From NCBI GenBank assembly GCA_903926465.1, contig CAIYJE010000029.1, positions 1-64,000 of the forward strand: DNA of 64,000 bases. Direction: 5' to 3'. The DNA comes from an uncultured Planctomycetales bacterium. Its GTDB lineage: Bacteria; Planctomycetota; Planctomycetia; Isosphaerales; Isosphaeraceae. The notes beneath the pieces were generated by a model. The model did not search any database. It was not told where the DNA came from and saw only the letters and a list, made by a program, of their open reading frames with translations. Below are positions 14,022 to 34,821 of the stretch, one piece after another. Numbering within the stretch: the first letter of the stretch is position 1; every line of letters begins with the position of its first letter. A program made the translations under genes and the position numbers.

Positions 14022-14837
14022 TCAGATTGTCAGGGCGTGCGGATAAATCCCAGATTCCTGGACCGCCAGCGATACCGATTCGCCGTCGGCCAGTTCCGCC
14101 CCGGATGCAAACGCCACAAGCAGCGCCAGATCTGCCAACCGGTTCAACCGTCTGGGCAGTCCTTCGGAGGCTTGCTGTAACTGAGCCACCGCGTCGGGCG
14201 TGAACAAGGGCCGATTCCCACCAGCAATCCGCATGCGACCCATCAGATAGGCTTCGGTCTCGGGCAACTCCAGCGGCCCAACCAGCCCGCAGGCCGAAAG
14301 CCGGTCGGCCAGGGCCGGAGAGAGCCTGAGCAGCAGGTCGGTAGCGCCCACCAGCAACAGGCACAGATCCGGCGGGCCAGCCGAACTGAAGTTGAGCAGT
14401 AACCTGAGACATTCGAAGGTGGCTGGGTCATCAATCACATGAGCGTCATCGACCAGCAGCAGGGGACGCTGACCCTGAGCCCGGGCTGTTGCCAAAAATC
14501 CCCGCAAGGTTTTCAGTGAACTCGCCAGATCGGGCGGTTGAGCGGCAATTGGGGCAATGCCGAATTCATCGGCAATCACGGCCAGAAGTGACTCGGGCCG
14601 GAGCGCTGGGTAGGGTAGATGGGCGGTTGGACCTTCGAGAACGGCCGAGAGCCGACGGGCGAGTATTGTCTTGCCGGCCCCTGGGGGACCGTGCAGAACC
14701 ACCACCCCCGATCCTTGGTCTACGCCGTACCGGAGTCTACGGAGTACCGCTTCTCGACCAGGCAGGGGAACATAGGCCTCGGTTTCGAGGGTCTCGTCGA
14801 AGGGTCGGCGATCGAGATCGAAGTGCGAACAGTACAA
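14022..14837 (-). CDS. ExeA/GspA-like AAA ATPase
   Basis: 271-aa AAA+ ATPase that begins YCSHFDLDRRPF, as ExeA/GspA proteins do. Walker A is GPPGAGKT (about 50-57) and Walker B is LLLVDDAH (126-133). The C-terminal lid region ends with an arrangement usual for this family (LPRRLNRLADLALLVA). Homologues serve type II secretion or, in exosortase loci, accompany a tyrosine-kinase-like ATPase; which applies here is not known. The start codon is TTG, backed by a strong GGAGG 7-8 nt upstream. It lies 29 nt after the ExoP/CpsD-like gene, so they are probably co-transcribed. Confidence 0.8.
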   Translation of the reverse strand: MYCSHFDLDRRPFDETLETEAYVPLPGREAVLRRLRYGVDQGSGVVVLHGPPGAGKTILARRLSAVLEGPTAHLPYPALRPESLLAVIADEFGIAPIAAQPPDLASSLKTLRGFLATARAQGQRPLLLVDDAHVIDDPATFECLRLLLNFSSAGPPDLCLLLVGATDLLLRLSPALADRLSACGLVGPLELPETEAYLMGRMRIAGGNRPLFTPDAVAQLQQASEGLPRRLNRLADLALLVAFASGAELADGESVSLAVQESGIYPHALTI

Positions 14838-14866: not shown

Positions 14867-15670
14867 CTACAGATCGGTCTCGCCGTTGAGGTTAGATCCC
14901 GACGTCGCCAGAGCTTGGGAGGCAAAGGTTTCTGCGATGCCACGTACCGGCAGGCCACCTGCCTCAAGCACTTCGCGGGCACGTTCGATCGAGGTATCCG
15001 TGGTCAGGCCCCGGTGGACCACCAGAACGGCGGCATCCACCGAGCGATGCAACAGTGCCGCACTCAATCCCGCAAACAGTGGACTGCCATCAAGCAAGAC
15101 CAGGTCATACTCACGCCGGGCGCGGGCCATCAGGCAGGTCCACCCACCCGATGCCAGAAACTCTTTGGGCTGCAAAACTGGCGATCGCAGTGGTAACAGG
15201 TCCAGGCCGCCCACACCCGTCGGAATCACGGCATCCATCAGCGAGCATCGAGATTCCACCACATCCTGAAGACCAAGCAAACCAGGCGCTCGGAGCCATC
15301 GAGCCAGTGAGGGGCTGGTCAGGTCCGCATCCATCAGCAGGGTCTTGCCAGGCCGGTGGGCCAGAATTCGGGCCAGCGTCAGAACCAGGGTCGATCGACC
15401 TTCGGCACGATGGCAGCTTGTGAACAGGATCACCCGATCTGGGCGATGTTGCTCATCTTGAGCCAACCGGTTGGCCATCACCTGGAACCTGGGTCCATGG
15501 GCCTGCTCCAGAGCAAGCACTGTGCTGGGCCAGGCTAGAGACATTTCCGAAGGCCCAACCGTAGGCGGAGGAACAGCCACATGGGGCTTGGGCGGCGTAG
15601 CACCACGTGCCTCATGCACACGATTCTGCCCACCGTAAAGCCGTTCCAACGCGCGATCAACCTCCCGCAT
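14867..15670 (-). CDS. ExoP/CpsD-like P-loop ATPase (polysaccharide co-polymerase kinase family), with Arg in the P-loop
   Basis: 267 aa. The fold and motifs match the cytoplasmic half of bacterial tyrosine kinases: P-loop SCHRAEGRST (about 85-94), Walker A' MDADLTSP (113-120) and a Walker B-like VLLDGSPL. The invariant P-loop lysine is arginine (codon CGA). The C-terminus has no tyrosine cluster, so classical autokinase activity is doubtful. The start chosen is ATG at 15670, preceded by GGAGG with 8-nt spacing. It overlaps the upstream gene by 14 nt. The longer frame from 15724 has no ribosome-binding site. A role in exopolysaccharide production is inferred from family and neighbours. Confidence 0.75.
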   Translation of the reverse strand: MREVDRALERLYGGQNRVHEARGATPPKPHVAVPPPTVGPSEMSLAWPSTVLALEQAHGPRFQVMANRLAQDEQHRPDRVILFTSCHRAEGRSTLVLTLARILAHRPGKTLLMDADLTSPSLARWLRAPGLLGLQDVVESRCSLMDAVIPTGVGGLDLLPLRSPVLQPKEFLASGGWTCLMARARREYDLVLLDGSPLFAGLSAALLHRSVDAAVLVVHRGLTTDTSIERAREVLEAGGLPVRGIAETFASQALATSGSNLNGETDL

Positions 15671-16070
15671 GGGTCGAGTCCTCCGACCCGTCGTCCGGAA
15701 TAAGGTAACCGGCCGGTTTGACATCCAGTGTCACTCGCGGGCCGGGGCGATCTTCAACGTGGGCGGAAACCGCCGGCGTCAACGGATCGGAACTGGAGCG
15801 ATCCAGGGAACTTTGGGGCGAACCATACTCAGTCAGCAACGCGTGCGTGGGAACCGCAAAGCGAATGATGATTCCGACCAGAAATAGGACGATGAACGCC
15901 AAACCGGTGATCCTGACGCTGCGCTTGAGCCGCCGACGTGGCCGAGGCAGGGTGGTACCTATGCGTGAGGGTCGCCAGCCGTGGGGGGCTCGCGACGTTC
16001 CCCTGGTGACCCGAGTGGGGCCACCAGCAGCGTCCAGCGGCGTTGTGACTTCAGATTGCAAGATCAACAT
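15657..16070 (-). CDS. Small single-pass membrane protein of unknown function
   Basis: 137 aa. A basic cytoplasmic N-terminus (PRPRRRLKRS) leads into one membrane segment at about 51-70 (ITGLAFIVLFLVGIIIRFAV), followed by a Pro/Ser/Asp-rich extracytoplasmic tail. The start is ATG at 16070, about 10 nt after a very purine-rich AGGAGAGGGAGG. The frame stays open further upstream without another ribosome-binding site. Its stop overlaps the start of the ATPase gene, which suggests translational coupling. In polysaccharide systems the ATPase works with a membrane partner, and this protein may be a reduced one. That is inference. Confidence 0.6.
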   Translation of the reverse strand: MLILQSEVTTPLDAAGGPTRVTRGTSRAPHGWRPSRIGTTLPRPRRRLKRSVRITGLAFIVLFLVGIIIRFAVPTHALLTEYGSPQSSLDRSSSDPLTPAVSAHVEDRPGPRVTLDVKPAGYLIPDDGSEDSTHAGG

Positions 16071-19448: not shown

Positions 19449-20855
19449 TCAGCGAGACACCGAGTTGAGCCGGGTTGATCTCAACTTGTGGTGGCTGGCG
19501 AACCCGGTGACCACATTGGTCAAGGCGCTCAGGTGCAGGTGCACCAAACTGCCAATCGCTTCCGACCGAAAGACGATGTCTGGCTCGGTGGACAGGAAGC
19601 CAAACCGCGATGGACAATCGTGAGGATTGGGGGCGGGCAACAAGTTCCAGCGCCCGGATCGGTAGCCCCGGACAACCGTACCCGATCGCGCCAGCCAGCT
19701 ATCGCTGGTCAGTTGCCGCTCAACCGGTTGTGGCCAGCCAGTCTCATCCACTAGCCTGGCATCAATGGGCAAGATTCCCGCCCCTGGGAAGACCTGAGCT
19801 CCAATCTGCATTGATCGACCCAGGTAGGCAGCCCCGCCGCCTTCGGCATAGATCCGTTGCCCTTTGCAAACATGCGCCTGAAGCTCGGCCATCATGCTGA
19901 TATTGGCAGAGAGCTGGGCGGCATGATGATCAGGAAATCCACATCCGATCATCACCAGATCCACACCCCTGGGTAAAGCTTCCGAGCGTAGGGGAGAGAA
20001 CTCTACCAGTTCGGCTCCCAGTAGCTCCAATGCTTCCAAGGTGTCTGGGAAATAGCCGCCAAATGCCTCATCCTGGGCGTAAGCCACGCGAAATCGACGC
20101 TCGCCGGATGTCAGCAGCCACGCCGGCACCTCCAGGCCAGCTTGATCGGGAGCTGGAAACTCTCGACTTTTGGCCAACCGGGATACCAGTCCCCAATCCA
20201 CGGTGTTCAGAAAACTCCGAATCAAGGGTTCGAGCAGGTCACGCGGAACCGGTCGGCCGGCGGGCCAGCCAGCCAATCCCGCACGAACGGCCGGTAAGGC
20301 TTCCAGGCCAGCGACCACCGGAGCGCCGGAACGCTGCTCAATCAACTGTTTTAACTGCTCAAAATGATGCCGATCCCTGACCCCATCCAGCAGCACGGCA
20401 TCCGCCTGCCGAGGGATCAACGGAAGCGAAAGCGGCTCGTTGGCCAGGCAATCCAGCACGGCGATCGCAGGCAAATCCAGAATTTCTAGCAATGGCGCAA
20501 TCGGTCCCGGAATCTCCCCGGAGCGACCGCAGGCTAATCCAGCCGCCTGGTCATTAACACGGGCAATGGGTGCGAATTCAAGAGATCCCTCGACCAGGGC
20601 CAGGTCGGTCTGTCGAGCGCCCCGAGTGAACACCGATCGACAAACACTGGGGGACATCAGCCACGCATCCAGATGCCGACCCGGTAAACCCGTGATTGGA
20701 CCAATCGGTCGGCTGGTAAGCGGACAGGCCCACGATCGAAAATGCTGGACCTTCCAACCGGTCGCCCCCAGCGCACCCAAAAACGCCAAGCTGGCCACGG
20801 ACGGATCGGGATCTGTTGGCGATGTTAAAAGTGCCAGGCGGGGCATGTGACCCAT
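19449..20855 (-). CDS. CobB/CbiA-like protein lacking the P-loop and the glutaminase cysteine
   Basis: 468 aa, the length and domain order of cobyrinate a,c-diamide synthase: an N-terminal dethiobiotin-synthetase-like half and a C-terminal class I amidotransferase half. Family features remain: RFRVAYAQDEAFGGYFPDTLEALELLGAEL, the strand before DLVMIGCGFPDHHAAQLSAN, and a final HLHLSAL histidine. The N-terminus reads RLALLTSPTDPDPSVA where a GxxxGKT P-loop is expected. The nucleophile site reads YAEGGGAAYLG instead of YAECGG; the Gly codon was verified on the reverse strand. ATP- and glutamine-dependent amidation by the usual mechanism therefore looks impossible. ATG at 20855 is preferred (AGGA about 8 nt upstream). 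No other cobalamin gene is nearby. Confidence 0.75.
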   Translation of the reverse strand: MGHMPRLALLTSPTDPDPSVASLAFLGALGATGWKVQHFRSWACPLTSRPIGPITGLPGRHLDAWLMSPSVCRSVFTRGARQTDLALVEGSLEFAPIARVNDQAAGLACGRSGEIPGPIAPLLEILDLPAIAVLDCLANEPLSLPLIPRQADAVLLDGVRDRHHFEQLKQLIEQRSGAPVVAGLEALPAVRAGLAGWPAGRPVPRDLLEPLIRSFLNTVDWGLVSRLAKSREFPAPDQAGLEVPAWLLTSGERRFRVAYAQDEAFGGYFPDTLEALELLGAELVEFSPLRSEALPRGVDLVMIGCGFPDHHAAQLSANISMMAELQAHVCKGQRIYAEGGGAAYLGRSMQIGAQVFPGAGILPIDARLVDETGWPQPVERQLTSDSWLARSGTVVRGYRSGRWNLLPAPNPHDCPSRFGFLSTEPDIVFRSEAIGSLVHLHLSALTNVVTGFASHHKLRSTRLNSVSR

Positions 20856-25944: not shown

Positions 25945-28900
25945 ATGTCGATCTCCAAGACTCTGCAGCGGCTTTTCGGTTCTCGCCTGGTCCGAAAACC
26001 AAGATGGAAATCACATGCCAGACTCCTGGCCGGACTGGAGGGGCTGGAAGAGTTGTTACTCTCCAGATTGCCTCGCTGGGTTACTGGTCGTCGATTCCGT
26101 CATTGCCGAACCCAGCAAAGACGCAGTTTGAGCCTTGCTTTGTGGGTCCATGCACTTGAGGATCGCGTGGTCCCCGCGACCATCACGGTCAACTCCCTTC
26201 TGGACGGCGCAACTTCAGCGGGGCAGATCACTCTGAGACAGGCGATCGAGGCGGCGAACACCGACGCCTCTGTCAACGGTTCTGTAGCGGGATTGGGCGC
26301 GGATACGATTGTATTCGACCCCGCATTATTCAATGGTGGTGCGCAATCCATATCGCTCACCAGCTTCTCAGCCAGCACAGCCGGTTCACGCGCGCTCTTT
26401 ATCACGTCGGACGTCACAATTCAGGGACCGACAGGCAGTGCGGGACTGACCATCCACGTGGATAACACCAACTATACCGGCGGTATCTTCGAAGTGAGTG
26501 CGGCGGCAAGTCTCAACCTTAAGAACCTGACCCTTTCGGGCGGCACGGCGCGGGGTGGAGACGGCTCCTCGGGTGGTGGTGGTGGTGGCGGCATGGGAGG
26601 AGCGATCTTCAATCAAGGATCTTTGGTTGTCGATAGTTGCACATTTAACCAGAACCAGGCCATCGGCGGCAATGGCGGTGCGGCTGGTGCCACCGGTGGA
26701 TCAGGTGGTGGTTATTACTATTGGTACAACAACATTTATTACTCCAGCGACTATAGCATTAAATATGTCGAAAATTACTTTTATGGACTCTATGGTTCGA
26801 GCGGCTACAACGGCGGCTCTGGGGGTGGGACAAACGGCGGACTTCTCGGTTCCGGAGGGTATATCGTTGGAGCTGCTGGGGCTGGTGGTTTTGGTGGTGG
26901 TGGCGGCGGTGGAGGAGGCGGTGGCGGAGGTTCTGGTTCCGGTGGCACCGCAGAAGATGTTTACGTCTACCACAATTATTTTTTGGGGTCTGGATATTAT
27001 TACGACCATACAAATTACTATGGCTCGAATGGCAGTCCAGGTTACGCAGGTGGTCAGGGCGGTGCCGGCGGCTTTGGCGGCGGCGGGGGCGGTGGTGGCG
27101 GCGGTGGTTTCGGTGGTACCGCGTATCATGGTTCAGCAGGCTCAGGTGGGGTCGGAGGTGCTGCTGGTGCCAGTGGATTTGCAGGTGGCACAGGAGGGGT
27201 GGGTGCTTCGCCTGGCTCGGGTGGACAGGGGGGCGGCGGGGCCAGCCTGGGTGGTGCCATTTTCAACAATGCGGGCTCCGTTACTCTGCGCAATAGCACG
27301 TTCAGCGGAAACAGCTCGACGGGTGGGACCGGCTACACCCCAGGCCAGGCGCTTGGCGGCGCCGTGTTCAGCCGCAACGGCTCACTTACCGTTCTGAACT
27401 CGACAATCACAAATAACACGGCCGGAAATGGCGGACGTGGGATTTATGTACTGGGAGATGCTGATACCGCCACGGTGAGCCTGAACAATACGTTGATCGG
27501 TCAATCAGACACCTCTGTCAGCGACTATGGCGCTACGACCAATGCTGGCGGCACAGTGACGTCCTCAGGAACCAACAACCTGGTTCGCACTTATGTCGGC
27601 CAGGCTGCCCCCGGCGTGATTTCCATCGGCGATCCCTTGCTGGGCGTGCTTGGTAATAACGGCGGTCCGACCGCCACGGCGGCACTCAAGTTGGGTTCGC
27701 CGGCGATCGATTCGGGCAGCAACGTTGCAGCAGGCTCCCTGAGTACCGATCAGCGAGGTCTCTCTCGCACCTTCAACAGCATCACCGACATCGGTGCCTT
27801 TGAGTATCGCTTCGTATCGGCGACCACTACCGTCCTAACCAAGTCCATGGCTTCGGCCCTTTATGGTCAAGCCGTCACACTGTCGGCAACCATCACCGCT
27901 GTAACAGGGAGCAGTGGCACGCCCACGGGCTCGGTGCAGTTCCTGGTCGATGGTTCGAACTACGGTAGTCCTGTTGCCCTCTCAGGTGGCGTGGCCACGC
28001 TTGCGGCTGCCACCATTCCGGCGGGCGATCACCAGATATCTGCACAGTACCTGGGGCGAGATTCCTTTTACGCAAGCTCCTCAGCGTTTATTCAGACGAT
28101 TGCTGGCACGGGCACCGCCGGCTTCAGCGGAGACGGCGGCCCTGCCACCAGCGCCACCCTGCACTCACCAGGTGACGTGGTGATCGACAGCGATGGGAAC
28201 CTGTTCTTTGCGGATGTGGATAATCAAAGAATTCGCGAGGTCGTCAAGGCCACCGGAAACATCATTACGATTGCCGGGACTGGGACGGCCGGGTATAGCG
28301 GTGATGGTGGACCTGCCACGGCCGCGAAATTGAACACCCCGGTCGGCTTGGCTTTCGATAGCGCCGGCAACCTGTTCATTGCCGACCACAACAACAACCG
28401 AATCCGTGAGATCGTCAAGGCGACCGGAAACATCATCACCGTGGCAGGCAATGGAACCGGTGCCTACTCTGGCGATGGGAGCGCCGCGAGCGCAGCCTCG
28501 CTCTTCGGCCCGAATGGTGTTGCCTTTGACGCCAGTGGCAATTTGTTTATTGCTGACCAGGCCAACAACCGCATTCGCGAGATTGTCAAGGCGACTGGAA
28601 ACATTGTGACCGTTGCGGGTAATGGCACCGCCGGCTTCAGCGGCGATGGCGCTGCTGCCACCGCCGCAAAGTTGTCTGTCCCAATTGGCCTGACGATCGA
28701 TAGCGCCGGCAACCTGTTCATTGCCGACCTGGCCAATAACCGGATCCGTGAGATCGTCAAGGCGACCGGAAATATCATCACCGTGGCAGGCAATGGACCC
28801 GCGAGCTTTAACGGAGATGGCGGTGCAGCCACCAGCGCGTCATTGAATAGTCCGTATAGGGTGATTACCGATGGAACAGGCAACCTGTTCATTGTTGACC

Positions 28901-31900
28901 AGAACAACAACCGGGTTCGCAAGGTCGATCAGGCGACCGGCGTGATCACGACCGTGGCTGGTAACGGAACCGCCGGTTACACAGGCGATGGCGGCCCGGC
29001 CGGAAATGCGACACTGTACATTCCTCTGGGTATGTGCTTCGATTCTACCGGCAACCTTTACATCGGAGACTATTGTAACCAGGCCATCCGCAAAGTGACA
29101 TCATCGACAACGCTGCATGTTGGCGCTGCATCCACGGTGACTAATCTTTCGCTTTCCAACGCCTCTGCAACTTATGGTCAACCGGTTACCCTCACGGCCA
29201 CGGTGAACGCAGTGGCGCCAAGTACGGCCACACCTGCGGGCTCGGTGCAGTTCCAGGTGGATGGTGTGAACTTCTGGAGCCCGGTCACGGTGGTGAACGG
29301 CGTGGCGAGCCTGGCAACGGCCCAGGTTCCCGTCGGCATGCACGCGCTGTCCGCCAGCTTCACCGGTACCGATTCCCAGTTTAATAATAGTTCGGGAACA
29401 TTGGTCGGCTCAACGCTTTATGTGAGCACCGTGGCCGGCGGCGGTTCTGGATCTGGAGAAAATGTCGCGGCAACATCCATTTCCTTGCAGAATCCGCAAG
29501 CGGTGGCTGTTGATGCCCAGGGTAATATTTATTTTGATGACTCGGCGCGCCATCGCGTGCGTGAAATTGTCAAGGCCACGGGCAATGTCATCACGATCGC
29601 TGGTAACGGATTGCAAGGGAGCACCGGCGATGGGGGTCAGGCGACCGCCGCAAGACTGGATTTACCCGCTGCGCTGGCGGTCGATTCTTCAGGCAATCTG
29701 TTGATCGCCGATTTCAATGCAGGGTTCGTTCGCAGGGTCGATAAAGCGACCGGCGTGATCACCACCGTGGCCGGTAACGGTCTTTCTCAAGGATCACTCG
29801 GCGATGGTGGACAAGCCACGGCCGGCATGCTGATCAATCCCACGGCATTAGCGTTGGACGCTTCGGGGAATCTGTTCATTTCTCAAAGCGGTGGTCGAGT
29901 TCGCGAGGTTCTCAAATCGACGGGTATCATCTCTACGGTGGCCGGGAATGGAACGTATGGGTTCAGTGGAGATGGCGGGCCGGCAACCGCCGCGAGCTTC
30001 AGGTCTCCGGAAGGGATCGCCGTTGACGGAGCAGGCAATATCTATATTGCAGACCTCGGTAACTATCGCGTGCGTGAAGTGGTGAAATCCACGGGGAATA
30101 TCATCTCCATCGCGGGGAACGGTTCCTCGTCGTCCTCTGGCGATGGCGGGCCAGCAACAGCAGCCTCGTTCACGCCCTATTTCCTGGCTCTGGACAGTGG
30201 CGGGAACATTTTCATCACAGATGGGTCTCATCAACGCATTCGTGACATCAGCAAAGCAACCGGAAACATTTCCACGATTGCTGGAACCGGCACAGCGGGT
30301 TTCAATTCAGACGGTATTCCCGCATCAACGGCCCTGTTGAATGGTCCGAATGCGATCGCCACCGATAGCGCTGGTAATATCTACTTTACAGACAATGGCA
30401 ATAATCGGATTCGGGAACTGACCACACCTGCGCTGGTTGTTCAGCAAACAGCCACATCCATGAACCTGGTCAGTTCGTCCAGCCCCATCGCTGCCGGCCA
30501 GAATGTGACGTTCATCGCAAATGTGATTGCCAGTGCACCAAGTACGGCCACTCCCTCGGGCGGCACCGTGCAGTTCCAGGTCGATGGAATGAATGTTGGC
30601 AACCCGGTTGCGCTGGTCAATGGAGTGGTCACCCTGACGACGACCACCCTGTCTCCTGGCGTTCACATTATTCTGGCTGCCTATTCGGGCGACGGCCTGA
30701 GCTTCAAGAGCAGTTCGGCTCCGGCGATCTCACAAACCGTGAATCATGCGGCCACGGTCACCACGGTTGGCAGTAATCACAACCCCAGCGTGTATCGTGA
30801 CTACGTGGGATTCACTGCCACGGTCACCGCGGGCGCCACGGGTAACGTGACCTTCATGGACGGCACAAGCACACTGGGGAGCTGTCCGATCAGCAATGCC
30901 CAGGCAGGGTTGTCAACGTACACTCTGTCCGCGGGTAGCCATCTCATCACGGCCGTTTATGAAGGCGATCTTTACCATGATGGCAGCACAAGCAGCGTCT
31001 TGACCCAGATTGTGAACCAGACGCAGAGCTCGATCAGTGTGTCGAGTACTCTTAACCCCAGTCTTTACCAGGATTCCGTCACATTCTGGGCCTCGGTGTA
31101 TCCAAATCCTGGCCAGACAGGCCAGGTGACCTTCTTTGACGGTACAATGGTTCTCGGCGTGGCGGATTTGAGTTCGGGTCCTGGCATGTATAACAATGTG
31201 CCATTCGTGACATCGGACCTGAGTGTTGGTGAGCACAATATCACGGCGGTCTATAGCGGTGACGCTAATTATTTAGGCAGCACGAGTGCGGTGTGGACCC
31301 AGACTGTTAGCCCGGCCGTTACAACAACCACCCTCGCGATCCCGACTGGTCCGATTGTGTTTGGCCAGCCAGCCAACATGACGGCGAAGGTTTCCACGGG
31401 TGTTTGTACCCCCACAGGTGTAGTTCAGTTCCAGGTGGATGGATCGAACTATGGTAACCCTGTGAATCTGGTTCAGGGTATTGCGACACTGTCTGTCTCG
31501 CAGATTTGGGCCGGTACCCATCAGATTTCGGCTTTCTATCTGGGAGATAGTGCCAATCTTGCAGCAAGTGCCGACACTGTTGGCGTGATCAGCACGGTTG
31601 CTGGAGATGGTAACTCGGGCTTCAGCGGTGATGGAGTTGCGGCCACCAGTACCGCCCTCTGGCATCCGCAGGGGGTTGCCGTGGATTCTTCCGGGAATCT
31701 CTATATTGCGGATACCTATAATAACCGTATTCGTGAAGTTCTGAAGGATTCGGGGACGATCATCACGGTGGCCGGCAATGGCGGGACTGGCTTTGGTGGT
31801 GATGGCGGCGCAGCGACCAGTACCGCCCTCTGGTATCCGCAGGGGGTTGCCGTGGATTCTTCCGGGAATCTCTATATTGCGGATACCCAAAATAACCGTA

Positions 31901-34821
31901 TTCGTGAAGTTCTGAAGGATTCGGGGACGATCATCACGGTGGCCGGCAATGGCGGGACTGGCTTTGGTGGTGATGGCGGCGCAGCGACCGATGCGAACCT
32001 GAATGATGTGACTGGAATCGCCGTTGATACCGCCGGTAATCTGTTCATCGCTGATTCCTCCAACAACCGTGTTCGTGAGGTACTGAAGGATTCGGGGACG
32101 ATCATCACGGTGGTCGGCAATGGCGACTGGGGTTACAGTGGTGATGGTGGTTCCGCAACGGACGCGCAGATCAGTGCTCCTCATTCGGTTGCCGTGGATC
32201 GTTCAGGAAACCTGTTCATTGCCAGTCCGTTCAATCAAGCGATTCGCGAAGTCGTGAAGGCCACGGGACAGATCATCACGGTCGCCGGTAACGGTTTGTA
32301 TGGATCACAGGGCGACGGCGGGCCCGCGACAAGCGCGATGCTTCAGTTCCCGTACTCTGTCGCGGTGGACGATGCTGGAAACATTTACATTGCCGATAAT
32401 GATAGTGCACGGATCCGAAAAGTGTTTGCGTCGACAGGCGTGATCACCACGGTGGCTGGCAATGGTAATTATGGAACAACGGGTGACGGTGGCCAGGCAA
32501 CTGACGCCACCTTCAATGCACCGGCGGCAATAGGTCTGGATGGATCCGGCAATCTGTTTATTGCCGATGTCAACGTCATCCGAATGGTGAGCGCGGGTCA
32601 GCATCTCACGATCGATTCGGCCATAGCGGCGACCCGTATCTCTACCTCTTCGAGTTCCGTGAAGTATGGCGATAGCGTGACGTTCACGGCCACGGTCAGT
32701 GCAGATGCCCCCAGTGCCGCCACGCCCTCCGGCGGCTTGGTGCAGTTCGTGGTGGATGGAGTGAACTACAAGGATGTCGTCACTCTGGTGAACGGCGTGG
32801 CAACGCTGGATTCCAGTGACCTGAGCGTGGGGAGCCACAGCGTCACGGCCGTCTATGCCGGTGATGGGTTGAACTTCCAGGGGAGTACCGCCCCTGCAAT
32901 CACCCAGACCGTGAACAAGCTGGCCAGCACGACCACACTGGCATCATCGGCCAACCCGAGCACCTATGGTAATTCCGTGACCTTCACGGCCACGGTGCCG
33001 GCTGGTGCCACGGGTACGGTGACGTTCAAGGACGGTGTGTCCACGTTGGGCACGGGCATCATCAGCGGAACCACGGCCACGTTCAGCACGGCTACCCTGA
33101 CCGGTGGCAGCCACAGCATCACTGCCGTCTATGGCGGCGATACCAACTACGCTACCAGCACCAGCAGCGCCGTGAGTCAGACGGTGAACACCGCCAGTAC
33201 CACCACAACGCTGGCATCATCGGCCAACCCGAGCACCTATGGTAATTCCGTGACCTTCACGGCCACGGTGCCGGCTGGTGCCACGGGTACGGTGACGTTC
33301 AAGGACGGTGTGTCCACGTTGGGGGCGGGTACGATCAGCGGCGGCCAGGCGACGTTCAGCACGTCGAGCCTGACCGGTGGCAGCCACAGCATCACTGCCG
33401 TCTATGGCGGCGATACCAACTACGCTACCAGCACCAGCAGCGCTGTGAGCCAGACGGTGTACACCGCCAGTACCACCACAACGCTGGCTAGTTCGGCCAA
33501 CCCAATCACCTATGGCAACAGCGTGACCTTCACCGCCACCGTCACCAGCGGTGCAACCGGTACCGTGACCTTCAAGGATGGCTCGAACACGCTGGGCACG
33601 GGCATCATCAGCGGAACCACGGCCACGTTCAGCACGGCTACCCTGACCGGTGGCAGCCACAGCGTCACTGCCGTCTATGGCGGCGATACCAACTACGCTA
33701 CCAGCACCAGCAGCGTACTGACACAAACGATGGCGGCGGCCCCAGTGGTCACAGCTAGCCCAAACTCAGTATCAGTCAACTCGGGTGCCACAGCCACGTT
33801 CACGGCAGCGGCCATTGGCAACCCGGTGCCGACCGTTCAGTGGCAAATCAGCACCACTAACGGCATATCGTGGGCCAACATCACAGGTGCCACCAACACG
33901 AGCTACACCACGACGGCTATTACTCTGGCAAATGACGGCAGCCAGTACCGCGCGGCGTTTACTAACAGCCTGGGATCGGCTATCACCAGTACGGCCACGC
34001 TGCGGTTGAATCAGGCTCCGGCTATCACCAGTCAGCCGCTCAACGTGACCATGAACACAGGTCGCATTGCCACGTTCACGGTCACGGCATCCGGGTTCCC
34101 AGTGCCCAGCGTGCAGTGGCAGGTGTTAGGCACGGCCATTGGCAGCACCTGGACCGATATTCCTGGTGCCACCAGCACCAGCTACAGCACGTTGGCCTCG
34201 GGAAATAGCGGTAACAAGTTCCGCGCAGTTTTCACCAACACGTTCGGGACAGCTACGACCAATGCTGCCACGCTGACGATTGGAGTTGTGGCCACGGTTA
34301 CCGGTACCTCGGTGGGCTGGGGCACTCAAACCGCTAACCTGTTTGATGCTGGGAATGGCCGGTTACTGCCCCGCGACACCAGCACTGGTAATCTCCGGGC
34401 GATCGACATCCCCTGGCTGGGGATCAAGACGATCACGCTTACGCTTGACCAGTCGATTGCCAGCCTTGCTGCCGGCGATATCACGCTCAAAAGTGCGGGT
34501 GGCTTCATTTACAGCGTGACAAGCGTGACCGGTTCAGGGACCACCTGGACCATCAACTTGGGTGGACCTGGCTTCGTGAACGCCGACAAGGTGAATGTGA
34601 CCGTGGGCAACAGTAGCCTGGCCAGTTACAGCCGGCGCCTGGATGTGTTGCCTGGCGATGTGAATGATGATGGCTTGGTCAGCGCGCTCGATCAGTTGCT
34701 TGTCTCTCGTCAGCTCACTGCGTCCTACATCGTGTTTTACGATATCGATGGAAACGGTTCCTTGACGTCGAACGACGTCAGCCTGATCAAAACTCGCATA
34801 GGTAATAAGCTACCAGGATAA
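25945..34821 (+). CDS. Giant secreted NHL-propeller / Ig-repeat protein with dockerin-like C-terminus (2958 aa)
   Basis: Predicted surface or extracellular protein. A long basic N-terminus (1-70) precedes the signature LEDRVVPA (71-78). A choice-of-anchor-Q/beta-helix region runs to about residue 625 (ending DIGAFEYRF). It is interrupted by a Gly-rich, Tyr-rich stretch at about 205-435. Big_3-type Ig domains then alternate with three blocks of six NHL repeats each (about 719-1053, 1160-1492 and 1882-2220). Three near-identical Big_3 domains, two VQWQ-type Ig domains, and the same C-terminal module plus dockerin-like loops (DVNDDGLVSALD, DIDGNGSLTSND) as the 3225-aa protein complete it. AGGA lies about 9 nt before the ATG. 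Function unknown; ligand binding or adhesion is inferred. Confidence 0.9.
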   Translation: MSISKTLQRLFGSRLVRKPRWKSHARLLAGLEGLEELLLSRLPRWVTGRRFRHCRTQQRRSLSLALWVHALEDRVVPATITVNSLLDGATSAGQITLRQAIEAANTDASVNGSVAGLGADTIVFDPALFNGGAQSISLTSFSASTAGSRALFITSDVTIQGPTGSAGLTIHVDNTNYTGGIFEVSAAASLNLKNLTLSGGTARGGDGSSGGGGGGGMGGAIFNQGSLVVDSCTFNQNQAIGGNGGAAGATGGSGGGYYYWYNNIYYSSDYSIKYVENYFYGLYGSSGYNGGSGGGTNGGLLGSGGYIVGAAGAGGFGGGGGGGGGGGGGSGSGGTAEDVYVYHNYFLGSGYYYDHTNYYGSNGSPGYAGGQGGAGGFGGGGGGGGGGGFGGTAYHGSAGSGGVGGAAGASGFAGGTGGVGASPGSGGQGGGGASLGGAIFNNAGSVTLRNSTFSGNSSTGGTGYTPGQALGGAVFSRNGSLTVLNSTITNNTAGNGGRGIYVLGDADTATVSLNNTLIGQSDTSVSDYGATTNAGGTVTSSGTNNLVRTYVGQAAPGVISIGDPLLGVLGNNGGPTATAALKLGSPAIDSGSNVAAGSLSTDQRGLSRTFNSITDIGAFEYRFVSATTTVLTKSMASALYGQAVTLSATITAVTGSSGTPTGSVQFLVDGSNYGSPVALSGGVATLAAATIPAGDHQISAQYLGRDSFYASSSAFIQTIAGTGTAGFSGDGGPATSATLHSPGDVVIDSDGNLFFADVDNQRIREVVKATGNIITIAGTGTAGYSGDGGPATAAKLNTPVGLAFDSAGNLFIADHNNNRIREIVKATGNIITVAGNGTGAYSGDGSAASAASLFGPNGVAFDASGNLFIADQANNRIREIVKATGNIVTVAGNGTAGFSGDGAAATAAKLSVPIGLTIDSAGNLFIADLANNRIREIVKATGNIITVAGNGPASFNGDGGAATSASLNSPYRVITDGTGNLFIVDQNNNRVRKVDQATGVITTVAGNGTAGYTGDGGPAGNATLYIPLGMCFDSTGNLYIGDYCNQAIRKVTSSTTLHVGAASTVTNLSLSNASATYGQPVTLTATVNAVAPSTATPAGSVQFQVDGVNFWSPVTVVNGVASLATAQVPVGMHALSASFTGTDSQFNNSSGTLVGSTLYVSTVAGGGSGSGENVAATSISLQNPQAVAVDAQGNIYFDDSARHRVREIVKATGNVITIAGNGLQGSTGDGGQATAARLDLPAALAVDSSGNLLIADFNAGFVRRVDKATGVITTVAGNGLSQGSLGDGGQATAGMLINPTALALDASGNLFISQSGGRVREVLKSTGIISTVAGNGTYGFSGDGGPATAASFRSPEGIAVDGAGNIYIADLGNYRVREVVKSTGNIISIAGNGSSSSSGDGGPATAASFTPYFLALDSGGNIFITDGSHQRIRDISKATGNISTIAGTGTAGFNSDGIPASTALLNGPNAIATDSAGNIYFTDNGNNRIRELTTPALVVQQTATSMNLVSSSSPIAAGQNVTFIANVIASAPSTATPSGGTVQFQVDGMNVGNPVALVNGVVTLTTTTLSPGVHIILAAYSGDGLSFKSSSAPAISQTVNHAATVTTVGSNHNPSVYRDYVGFTATVTAGATGNVTFMDGTSTLGSCPISNAQAGLSTYTLSAGSHLITAVYEGDLYHDGSTSSVLTQIVNQTQSSISVSSTLNPSLYQDSVTFWASVYPNPGQTGQVTFFDGTMVLGVADLSSGPGMYNNVPFVTSDLSVGEHNITAVYSGDANYLGSTSAVWTQTVSPAVTTTTLAIPTGPIVFGQPANMTAKVSTGVCTPTGVVQFQVDGSNYGNPVNLVQGIATLSVSQIWAGTHQISAFYLGDSANLAASADTVGVISTVAGDGNSGFSGDGVAATSTALWHPQGVAVDSSGNLYIADTYNNRIREVLKDSGTIITVAGNGGTGFGGDGGAATSTALWYPQGVAVDSSGNLYIADTQNNRIREVLKDSGTIITVAGNGGTGFGGDGGAATDANLNDVTGIAVDTAGNLFIADSSNNRVREVLKDSGTIITVVGNGDWGYSGDGGSATDAQISAPHSVAVDRSGNLFIASPFNQAIREVVKATGQIITVAGNGLYGSQGDGGPATSAMLQFPYSVAVDDAGNIYIADNDSARIRKVFASTGVITTVAGNGNYGTTGDGGQATDATFNAPAAIGLDGSGNLFIADVNVIRMVSAGQHLTIDSAIAATRISTSSSSVKYGDSVTFTATVSADAPSAATPSGGLVQFVVDGVNYKDVVTLVNGVATLDSSDLSVGSHSVTAVYAGDGLNFQGSTAPAITQTVNKLASTTTLASSANPSTYGNSVTFTATVPAGATGTVTFKDGVSTLGTGIISGTTATFSTATLTGGSHSITAVYGGDTNYATSTSSAVSQTVNTASTTTTLASSANPSTYGNSVTFTATVPAGATGTVTFKDGVSTLGAGTISGGQATFSTSSLTGGSHSITAVYGGDTNYATSTSSAVSQTVYTASTTTTLASSANPITYGNSVTFTATVTSGATGTVTFKDGSNTLGTGIISGTTATFSTATLTGGSHSVTAVYGGDTNYATSTSSVLTQTMAAAPVVTASPNSVSVNSGATATFTAAAIGNPVPTVQWQISTTNGISWANITGATNTSYTTTAITLANDGSQYRAAFTNSLGSAITSTATLRLNQAPAITSQPLNVTMNTGRIATFTVTASGFPVPSVQWQVLGTAIGSTWTDIPGATSTSYSTLASGNSGNKFRAVFTNTFGTATTNAATLTIGVVATVTGTSVGWGTQTANLFDAGNGRLLPRDTSTGNLRAIDIPWLGIKTITLTLDQSIASLAAGDITLKSAGGFIYSVTSVTGSGTTWTINLGGPGFVNADKVNVTVGNSSLASYSRRLDVLPGDVNDDGLVSALDQLLVSRQLTASYIVFYDIDGNGSLTSNDVSLIKTRIGNKLPG
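26560..27250 (+). repeat. Gly-rich / Tyr-rich low-complexity insertion in the beta-helix region
   Basis: Codes for runs of glycine (up to ten or more) alternating with two Tyr/Asn-rich segments, YYYWYNNIYYSSDY near 26715 and YHNYFLGSGYYYDHTNYYG near 26970. It interrupts the beta-helix region, which resumes with SLGGAIFNNAGSVTLRNSTFSGN. Confidence 0.7.
28100..29105 (+). repeat. NHL block 1 (six repeats)
   Basis: Six NHL-type repeats (SDGNLFFADVDNQRIREV, SAGNLFIADHNNNRIREI, ASGNLFIADQ, SAGNLFIADL, GTGNLFIVDQ, STGNLYIGDY). Six blades match one closed beta-propeller. Confidence 0.8.
29425..30420 (+). repeat. NHL block 2 (six repeats)
   Basis: Six more NHL-type repeats (AQGNIYFDDS, SSGNLLIADF, ASGNLFISQS, GAGNIYIADL, SGGNIFITDG, SAGNIYFTDN), preceded and followed by Big_3-type Ig domains. 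Confidence 0.8.
31590..32605 (+). repeat. NHL block 3 (six repeats), with a nearly exact 171-bp blade duplication
   Basis: Six NHL-type repeats (SSGNLYIADTY, SSGNLYIADTQ, TAGNLFIADSS, RSGNLFIASPF, DAGNIYIADND, GSGNLFIADVN). The first two are nearly identical at DNA level with a 171-bp period (31646-31816 and 31817-31987). Confidence 0.8.
32938..33756 (+). repeat. Three tandem Big_3-type Ig domains, 273-bp period
   Basis: Each unit encodes 91 residues starting LASSANP(S/I)TYGNSVTFTATV and ending near SAVSQTV. Repeat starts are at 32938, 33211 and 33484. Units 1 and 2 are almost identical over their first half, and units 1 and 3 are nearly identical in the GIISGTTATFSTATLTGGSH part. That patchwork suggests gene conversion. 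Confidence 0.8.

Follow-up and report, generated by a model that had tools for sequence, protein, structure and literature searches.

The question posed by this locus is what a full-length homologue of the CobB/CbiA amidases does when neither of its catalytic sites is in place. The gene lies in a window of 64,000 nucleotides (the whole stretch of DNA analysed), from a host assembly of 6.9 Mb that is 99.7% complete. The initial annotation had placed an open reading frame at 19449-20855 and read its product as a maintained, repurposed CobB homologue minus both sites. The coordinates are right, and to them can be added the strand, which is minus: the ATG start is at 20855, the stop is at 19449, and the 468 codons run without interruption. 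The interpretation is supported as well. We put at roughly 55% the probability that the protein is a conserved pseudoenzyme, descended from the CobB/CbiA tetrapyrrole amidases, that acts as a sensor or adaptor by binding a ligand in its old glutaminase pocket. The features on which the argument draws, all on the minus strand, are as follows.

19449..20855, minus strand: CobB-like pseudoenzyme gene, 468 amino acids (open reading frame, CobB homology, orthologues in 39 of 45 family genomes)
20136..20855, minus strand: N-terminal domain, residues 1-240, with a BioD/MinD/CTP-synthase-like nucleotide-binding fold lacking the P-loop (AlphaFold2, Foldseek, VIA)
20796..20831, minus strand: residues 9-20, the LLTSPTDPDPSV region, which stands in for the CobB P-loop (alignment; family conservation average or below)
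20655..20684, minus strand: residues 58-67, PGRHLDAWLM, the kept counterpart of CobB NLDTWM, among the most conserved segments (alignment, conservation)
19488..20099, minus strand: class I glutamine-amidotransferase-like domain, residues 253-456 (Pfam GATase_3; VIA Z about 17 to HisH, GatD and PdxT-type glutaminases)
19941..19943, minus strand: Cys305, newly fixed, in a GCG loop where CobB has GGG; 83 of 88 members (alignment)
19818..19850, minus strand: nucleophile elbow YAEGGGAAYLG, residues 336-346, with Gly339 in place of the catalytic Cys (sequence, alignment)
19647..19670, minus strand: residues 396-403, RGYRSGRW, replacing CobB RGHEFHYS (alignment)
19539..19541, minus strand: His439, counterpart of the catalytic His, kept in 75 of 88 members (alignment)

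The former nucleotide and glutaminase sites

The best family match of the protein is CobB (NCBIfam PRK01077, E 4e-41, residues 53-441), with a score of 141 bits that falls below the model's cut-off of 254. Pfam GATase_3 (PF07685) is matched at 52.6 bits, above its gathering cut-off of 27, and a Pfam profile search did not detect the CbiA nucleotide-binding domain. An annotation that relied only on resemblance to GATase_3 or CobB could mistakenly imply cobalamin production. Sequence searches of the PDB, with either the protein or its profile as query, returned chance-level matches only, and among open-licence papers we found nothing on this family. An AlphaFold2 model of the whole protein, built from nine sequences, reached a pLDDT of 74.8, a moderate confidence, and a model of the N-terminal domain alone reached 79.7; by prediction, each domain retains its fold. 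Dethiobiotin synthetases head the Foldseek list for the N-terminal domain, and VIA comparisons give Z scores of 11-13 to structures of MinD, FleN, Ffh (SRP), CTP synthetase and dethiobiotin synthetase.

We aligned 88 members of the family, 39 from the window's own taxonomic family and 49 others, and used 40 real CobB proteins for comparison. The CobB P-loop AGTHSGSGKTT aligns with LTSPTDPDPSV in the window protein, just as the description of a Pro/Asp-rich replacement would have it; no P-loop occurs elsewhere in the protein according to the alignment with the 40 CobB sequences, and the motif G-x4-GK[ST] is found in none of the 88 members. At the nucleophile elbow, the Gly seen in place of the catalytic Cys holds up equally well, since Gly339 aligns with the CobB Cys without gaps. 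Across the 88 members this position is Gly in 81, Cys in four, Ala in two and Val in one. A misaligned P-loop or Cys was considered and rejected, given the lack of any GK[ST] P-loop in 88 members and the gapless elbow. More broadly, of 66 positions that hardly vary among the 40 CobB proteins, own-family members retain 19 and have lost 36, the losses including the P-loop, K39, G41-P42-D43, D46, D95, C335 and the HEFH motif; in the window protein the GPDFIDP, FDG and RGHEFHY motifs are all absent. As judged from these alignments, the protein has lost its ATP site (P-loop, switch and acidic residues on the Walker-B side) along with the glutaminase nucleophile, and it presumably amidates nothing any more.

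The two former sites have not fared alike. Conservation lies at the 91st-99th percentile for the first GATase loop, FSPL, GCG and elbow loops and at the 97th-100th for the RHLDxWLM segment of the N-terminal domain, versus the 29th-58th for the old P-loop, switch and Walker-B-side segments. The double loss proposed initially stands, but the proposal missed both this conserved glutaminase site, set against a drifted nucleotide site, and the newly fixed Cys305. The latter is present in all 39 own-family members and in 44 of the 49 others, at a position where CobB has Gly. Profile alignment pairs the GGG loop of CobB with that of a GatD chain, and the CobB Cys with the GatD Cys. By analogy with the class I glutaminase fold, Cys305 would sit beside the old nucleophile; His439 aligns with H437 of CobB.

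These residues invite a different explanation, that the protein is still an enzyme in which the reactive Cys has moved from the elbow to the oxyanion loop, making it an ATP-independent Cys hydrolase or transferase with His439. Its near-universal Cys305 in a loop matching that of GatD, the widespread His439 and the highly conserved loops around the site all speak for it, and if true, planctomycetes would have turned a tetrapyrrole amidase into a different, ATP-independent enzyme. We nevertheless consider it unlikely: 13 members are without His439, and most of these still have Cys305, which may instead be structural, or bind a ligand or a metal. Moreover, the four members with Cys at position 339 also have Cys305, which argues that there was no simple swap of one for the other. 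The sensor or adaptor reading is limited to this extent, that Cys305 and His439 leave room for other chemistry.

The four members with a nucleophile Cys (L155, L158, L051 and L053) come from two taxonomic families, f5 and f120, use the codon TGC in every case, and all lack a P-loop; Gly is found in L157, which shares its taxonomic family with L155 and L158. By parsimony on a FastTree tree, this position was Gly at the root and changed five times, and tree support around the Cys members is so weak that retention and regain of the Cys look the same. Glutaminase activity may therefore persist in some members, and the spread of states (Gly 81, Ala or Val three, Cys four) offers material for tracing the loss stepwise. 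Together with E89 and His439, these relatives are what could be cited for an amidase that still works, through an atypical ATP site or with free ammonia as its source. We regard that as very improbable. Nothing remains of the P-loop Lys, of the Asp residues in the switch and on the Walker-B side or of the HEFHY motif, the former nucleotide site has not been conserved, and most hosts have neither CobB nor CobQ.

Ancestry and maintenance

Intact, full-length orthologues occur in 39 of 45 Isosphaeraceae genomes, Singulisphaera and Tautonia among them. When only good-quality genomes of this family are counted, 24 of 26 have an orthologue, both absences falling in one genus (g18). Elsewhere in a class sample of 297 genomes, 21 others carry a family member, and in a second order (that of G127) diverged members are found in 50 of 246 genomes, about 20%. 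Scores against the family profile separate sharply in the class sample, with members at 445 bits or more and real CobB proteins at 278 or less; no other match in the phylum sample exceeds 291 bits, and each of the 26 lower-scoring matches inspected has a normal P-loop and ECGG. A maximum-likelihood tree splits the family from CobB with support of 100/100 and places the own-family members in a single clade, also at 100/100. The question whether one clade shares the Gly and the missing P-loop, which had been raised from the window protein alone, is answered positively for the P-loop and, in 81 of the 88 members, for the Gly.

Purifying selection, too, was found where it had been proposed to look for it. 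Nei-Gojobori dN/dS for related pairs within the family ranges from 0.04 to 0.27, overlapping the values for two CobB pairs, 0.12 and 0.14. The window gene against its nearest relative gives 0.23, with synonymous sites near saturation and the value less reliable for it, as is true of the more distant pairs in general. Clade-wide conservation and purifying selection bear out the suggestion of a maintained protein, and with the absence of CobB from the genome they are the reasons for regarding it as a repurposed CobB homologue.

The same absence could be read in the opposite sense, as the mark of a decaying CobB pseudogene left over once cobalamin synthesis was lost. The genome does lack both CobB and CobQ, which was half of what the initial annotation named as pointing to a pseudogene; the other half, frameshifts or decay in relatives, is not borne out. 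Full-length retention in most of the family, dN/dS well below 1, a clade distinct from CobB and the coexistence of both genes in several genomes leave this explanation next to no credibility, and we reject it on conservation and dN/dS. That a whole family and part of a second order should keep a CobB paralogue of full length whose two active sites are disabled clearly illustrates how pseudoenzymes evolve out of cofactor biosynthesis.

Gene neighbourhoods and cobalamin synthesis

The genes identified within about 5 kb of the window gene encode succinate dehydrogenase subunits, a FucU/RbsD protein and a weakly TIGR03790-like protein. None is a cobalamin gene, in keeping with what had been noted of its immediate surroundings, and no dsr genes are among them. 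Elsewhere in the window, the product of a minus-strand gene at 14867-15724 resembles polysaccharide tyrosine autokinases (Wzc/CapB type), with AEGRST in its P-loop where its PDB relative BceF has GKS; this gene adjoins one at 14022-14837 for a protein like the XrtA/PEP-CTERM-associated ATPase. On the plus strand, 25945-34821 is an open reading frame of 2958 amino acids. Its product, probably a giant protein of the cell surface, contains Gly-rich stretches, Ig-like repeats and NHL-like units in repeated copies (GDGGPAT...NNRIRE).

At the loci of relatives, neighbours were delimited by codon-based gene calling, the DNA being high in GC. They include MscS, a 600-residue protein without a Pfam hit, DacB-like protein, HtrA, RNase III, PdxJ, DapA and MgtE, several of these names coming from sequence reading rather than profile search. 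Neighbours vary and are usually not tightly spaced, so function is not deducible from guilt by association, and no conserved operon surrounds the pseudoenzyme at the family loci compared. The commonest co-directional upstream gene encodes an HtrA-type protease, found on the same strand at about 20 of the 49 loci outside the own family (L040-L060, L147-L174), with RNase III, PdxJ, DapA or MgtE genes nearby; it mostly lies 100-450 bp away, a spacing that suggests inherited gene order rather than an operon. The pseudoenzyme appears to be a stand-alone gene, outside any cobalamin operon.

A search for a normal CobB in the window's own genome, which the first reading had called for, found no second CobB-like protein, and no CobQ was found there either. 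Across the family, CobB occurs in nine of 45 genomes and CobQ scores above cut-off in 11 of 45, largely the same ones, and the pseudoenzyme occurs both with and without them. Eight of 16 CobB loci have a tetrapyrrole methylase gene, mostly just upstream; no cluster of this type was seen at pseudoenzyme loci. Because CobB and CobQ are missing from its own genome and CobB is so infrequent in the family, the pseudoenzyme probably has a role separate from cobalamin synthesis, having been reused for a non-B12 job. B12 may still matter to this organism, as its genome has one cobalamin riboswitch (G000:C118:3957-4181, L138; 88 bits), with no B12 gene evident in the 3.2 kb of its locus that was covered.

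A corrin ligand, suggested at the outset, is weakened by the occurrence of the protein mostly in genomes without CobB or CobQ and by loss of the CobB motifs HEFHY, GPDFIDP and FDG. Our analysis found no tetrapyrrole link for the pseudoenzyme. However, the CbiA family includes amidases for several tetrapyrroles (PMC10504309, PMC7242693), and by that analogy a tetrapyrrole ligand is possible.

A proposed role, and comparison with known systems

The location of the conserved residues suggests that the pseudoenzyme binds a ligand. The old glutaminase pocket, comprising D262, F265, Y268, FSPL, GCG, EGGG, RGYxxxRW and H439, would together with the RHLDxWLM segment of the N-terminal domain hold a small molecule or a protein segment, and the cleft between the two domains would transmit the binding.

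Pseudoenzymes often serve as structural or regulatory partners, and this one may belong to another complex as a subunit that binds no small molecule at all. Such behaviour is common, and the predicted retention of both folds would suit it. No conserved neighbour indicates a partner, though, and conservation is highest at the old active-site loops, so we hold it to be a possible but distinctly less probable explanation than a ligand-binding sensor or adaptor.

Compared with CobB/CbiA, the window protein has the same length, domain order and GATase_3 domain, an NLDTW-like motif, the EG of the Walker-B side and a catalytic-type His. It differs in lacking the P-loop, the nucleophile Cys and the HEFHY, GPDFIDP and FDG motifs, in having the new Cys305, and in the position of its gene away from cobalamin genes. 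DsrN and CfbB, the siroheme and Ni-sirohydrochlorin amidases homologous to CbiA (PMC10504309, PMC7242693), belong with the window protein to one homologous family of tetrapyrrole amidases. CfbB, unlike the window protein, is a glutamine- and ATP-dependent amidase, and against the CfbB model the window protein scores 111 bits, below the cut-off of 560. The class I glutaminases GatD, HisH and PdxT share the fold of the C-terminal domain, with the Z score of about 17 extending over some 180-195 residues; these glutaminase subunits have a catalytic Cys, whereas the window protein has Gly and is fused to a dead nucleotide-binding domain. That domain, in turn, shares its fold with dethiobiotin synthetase and the MinD-type NTPases, from which it differs in the missing P-loop.
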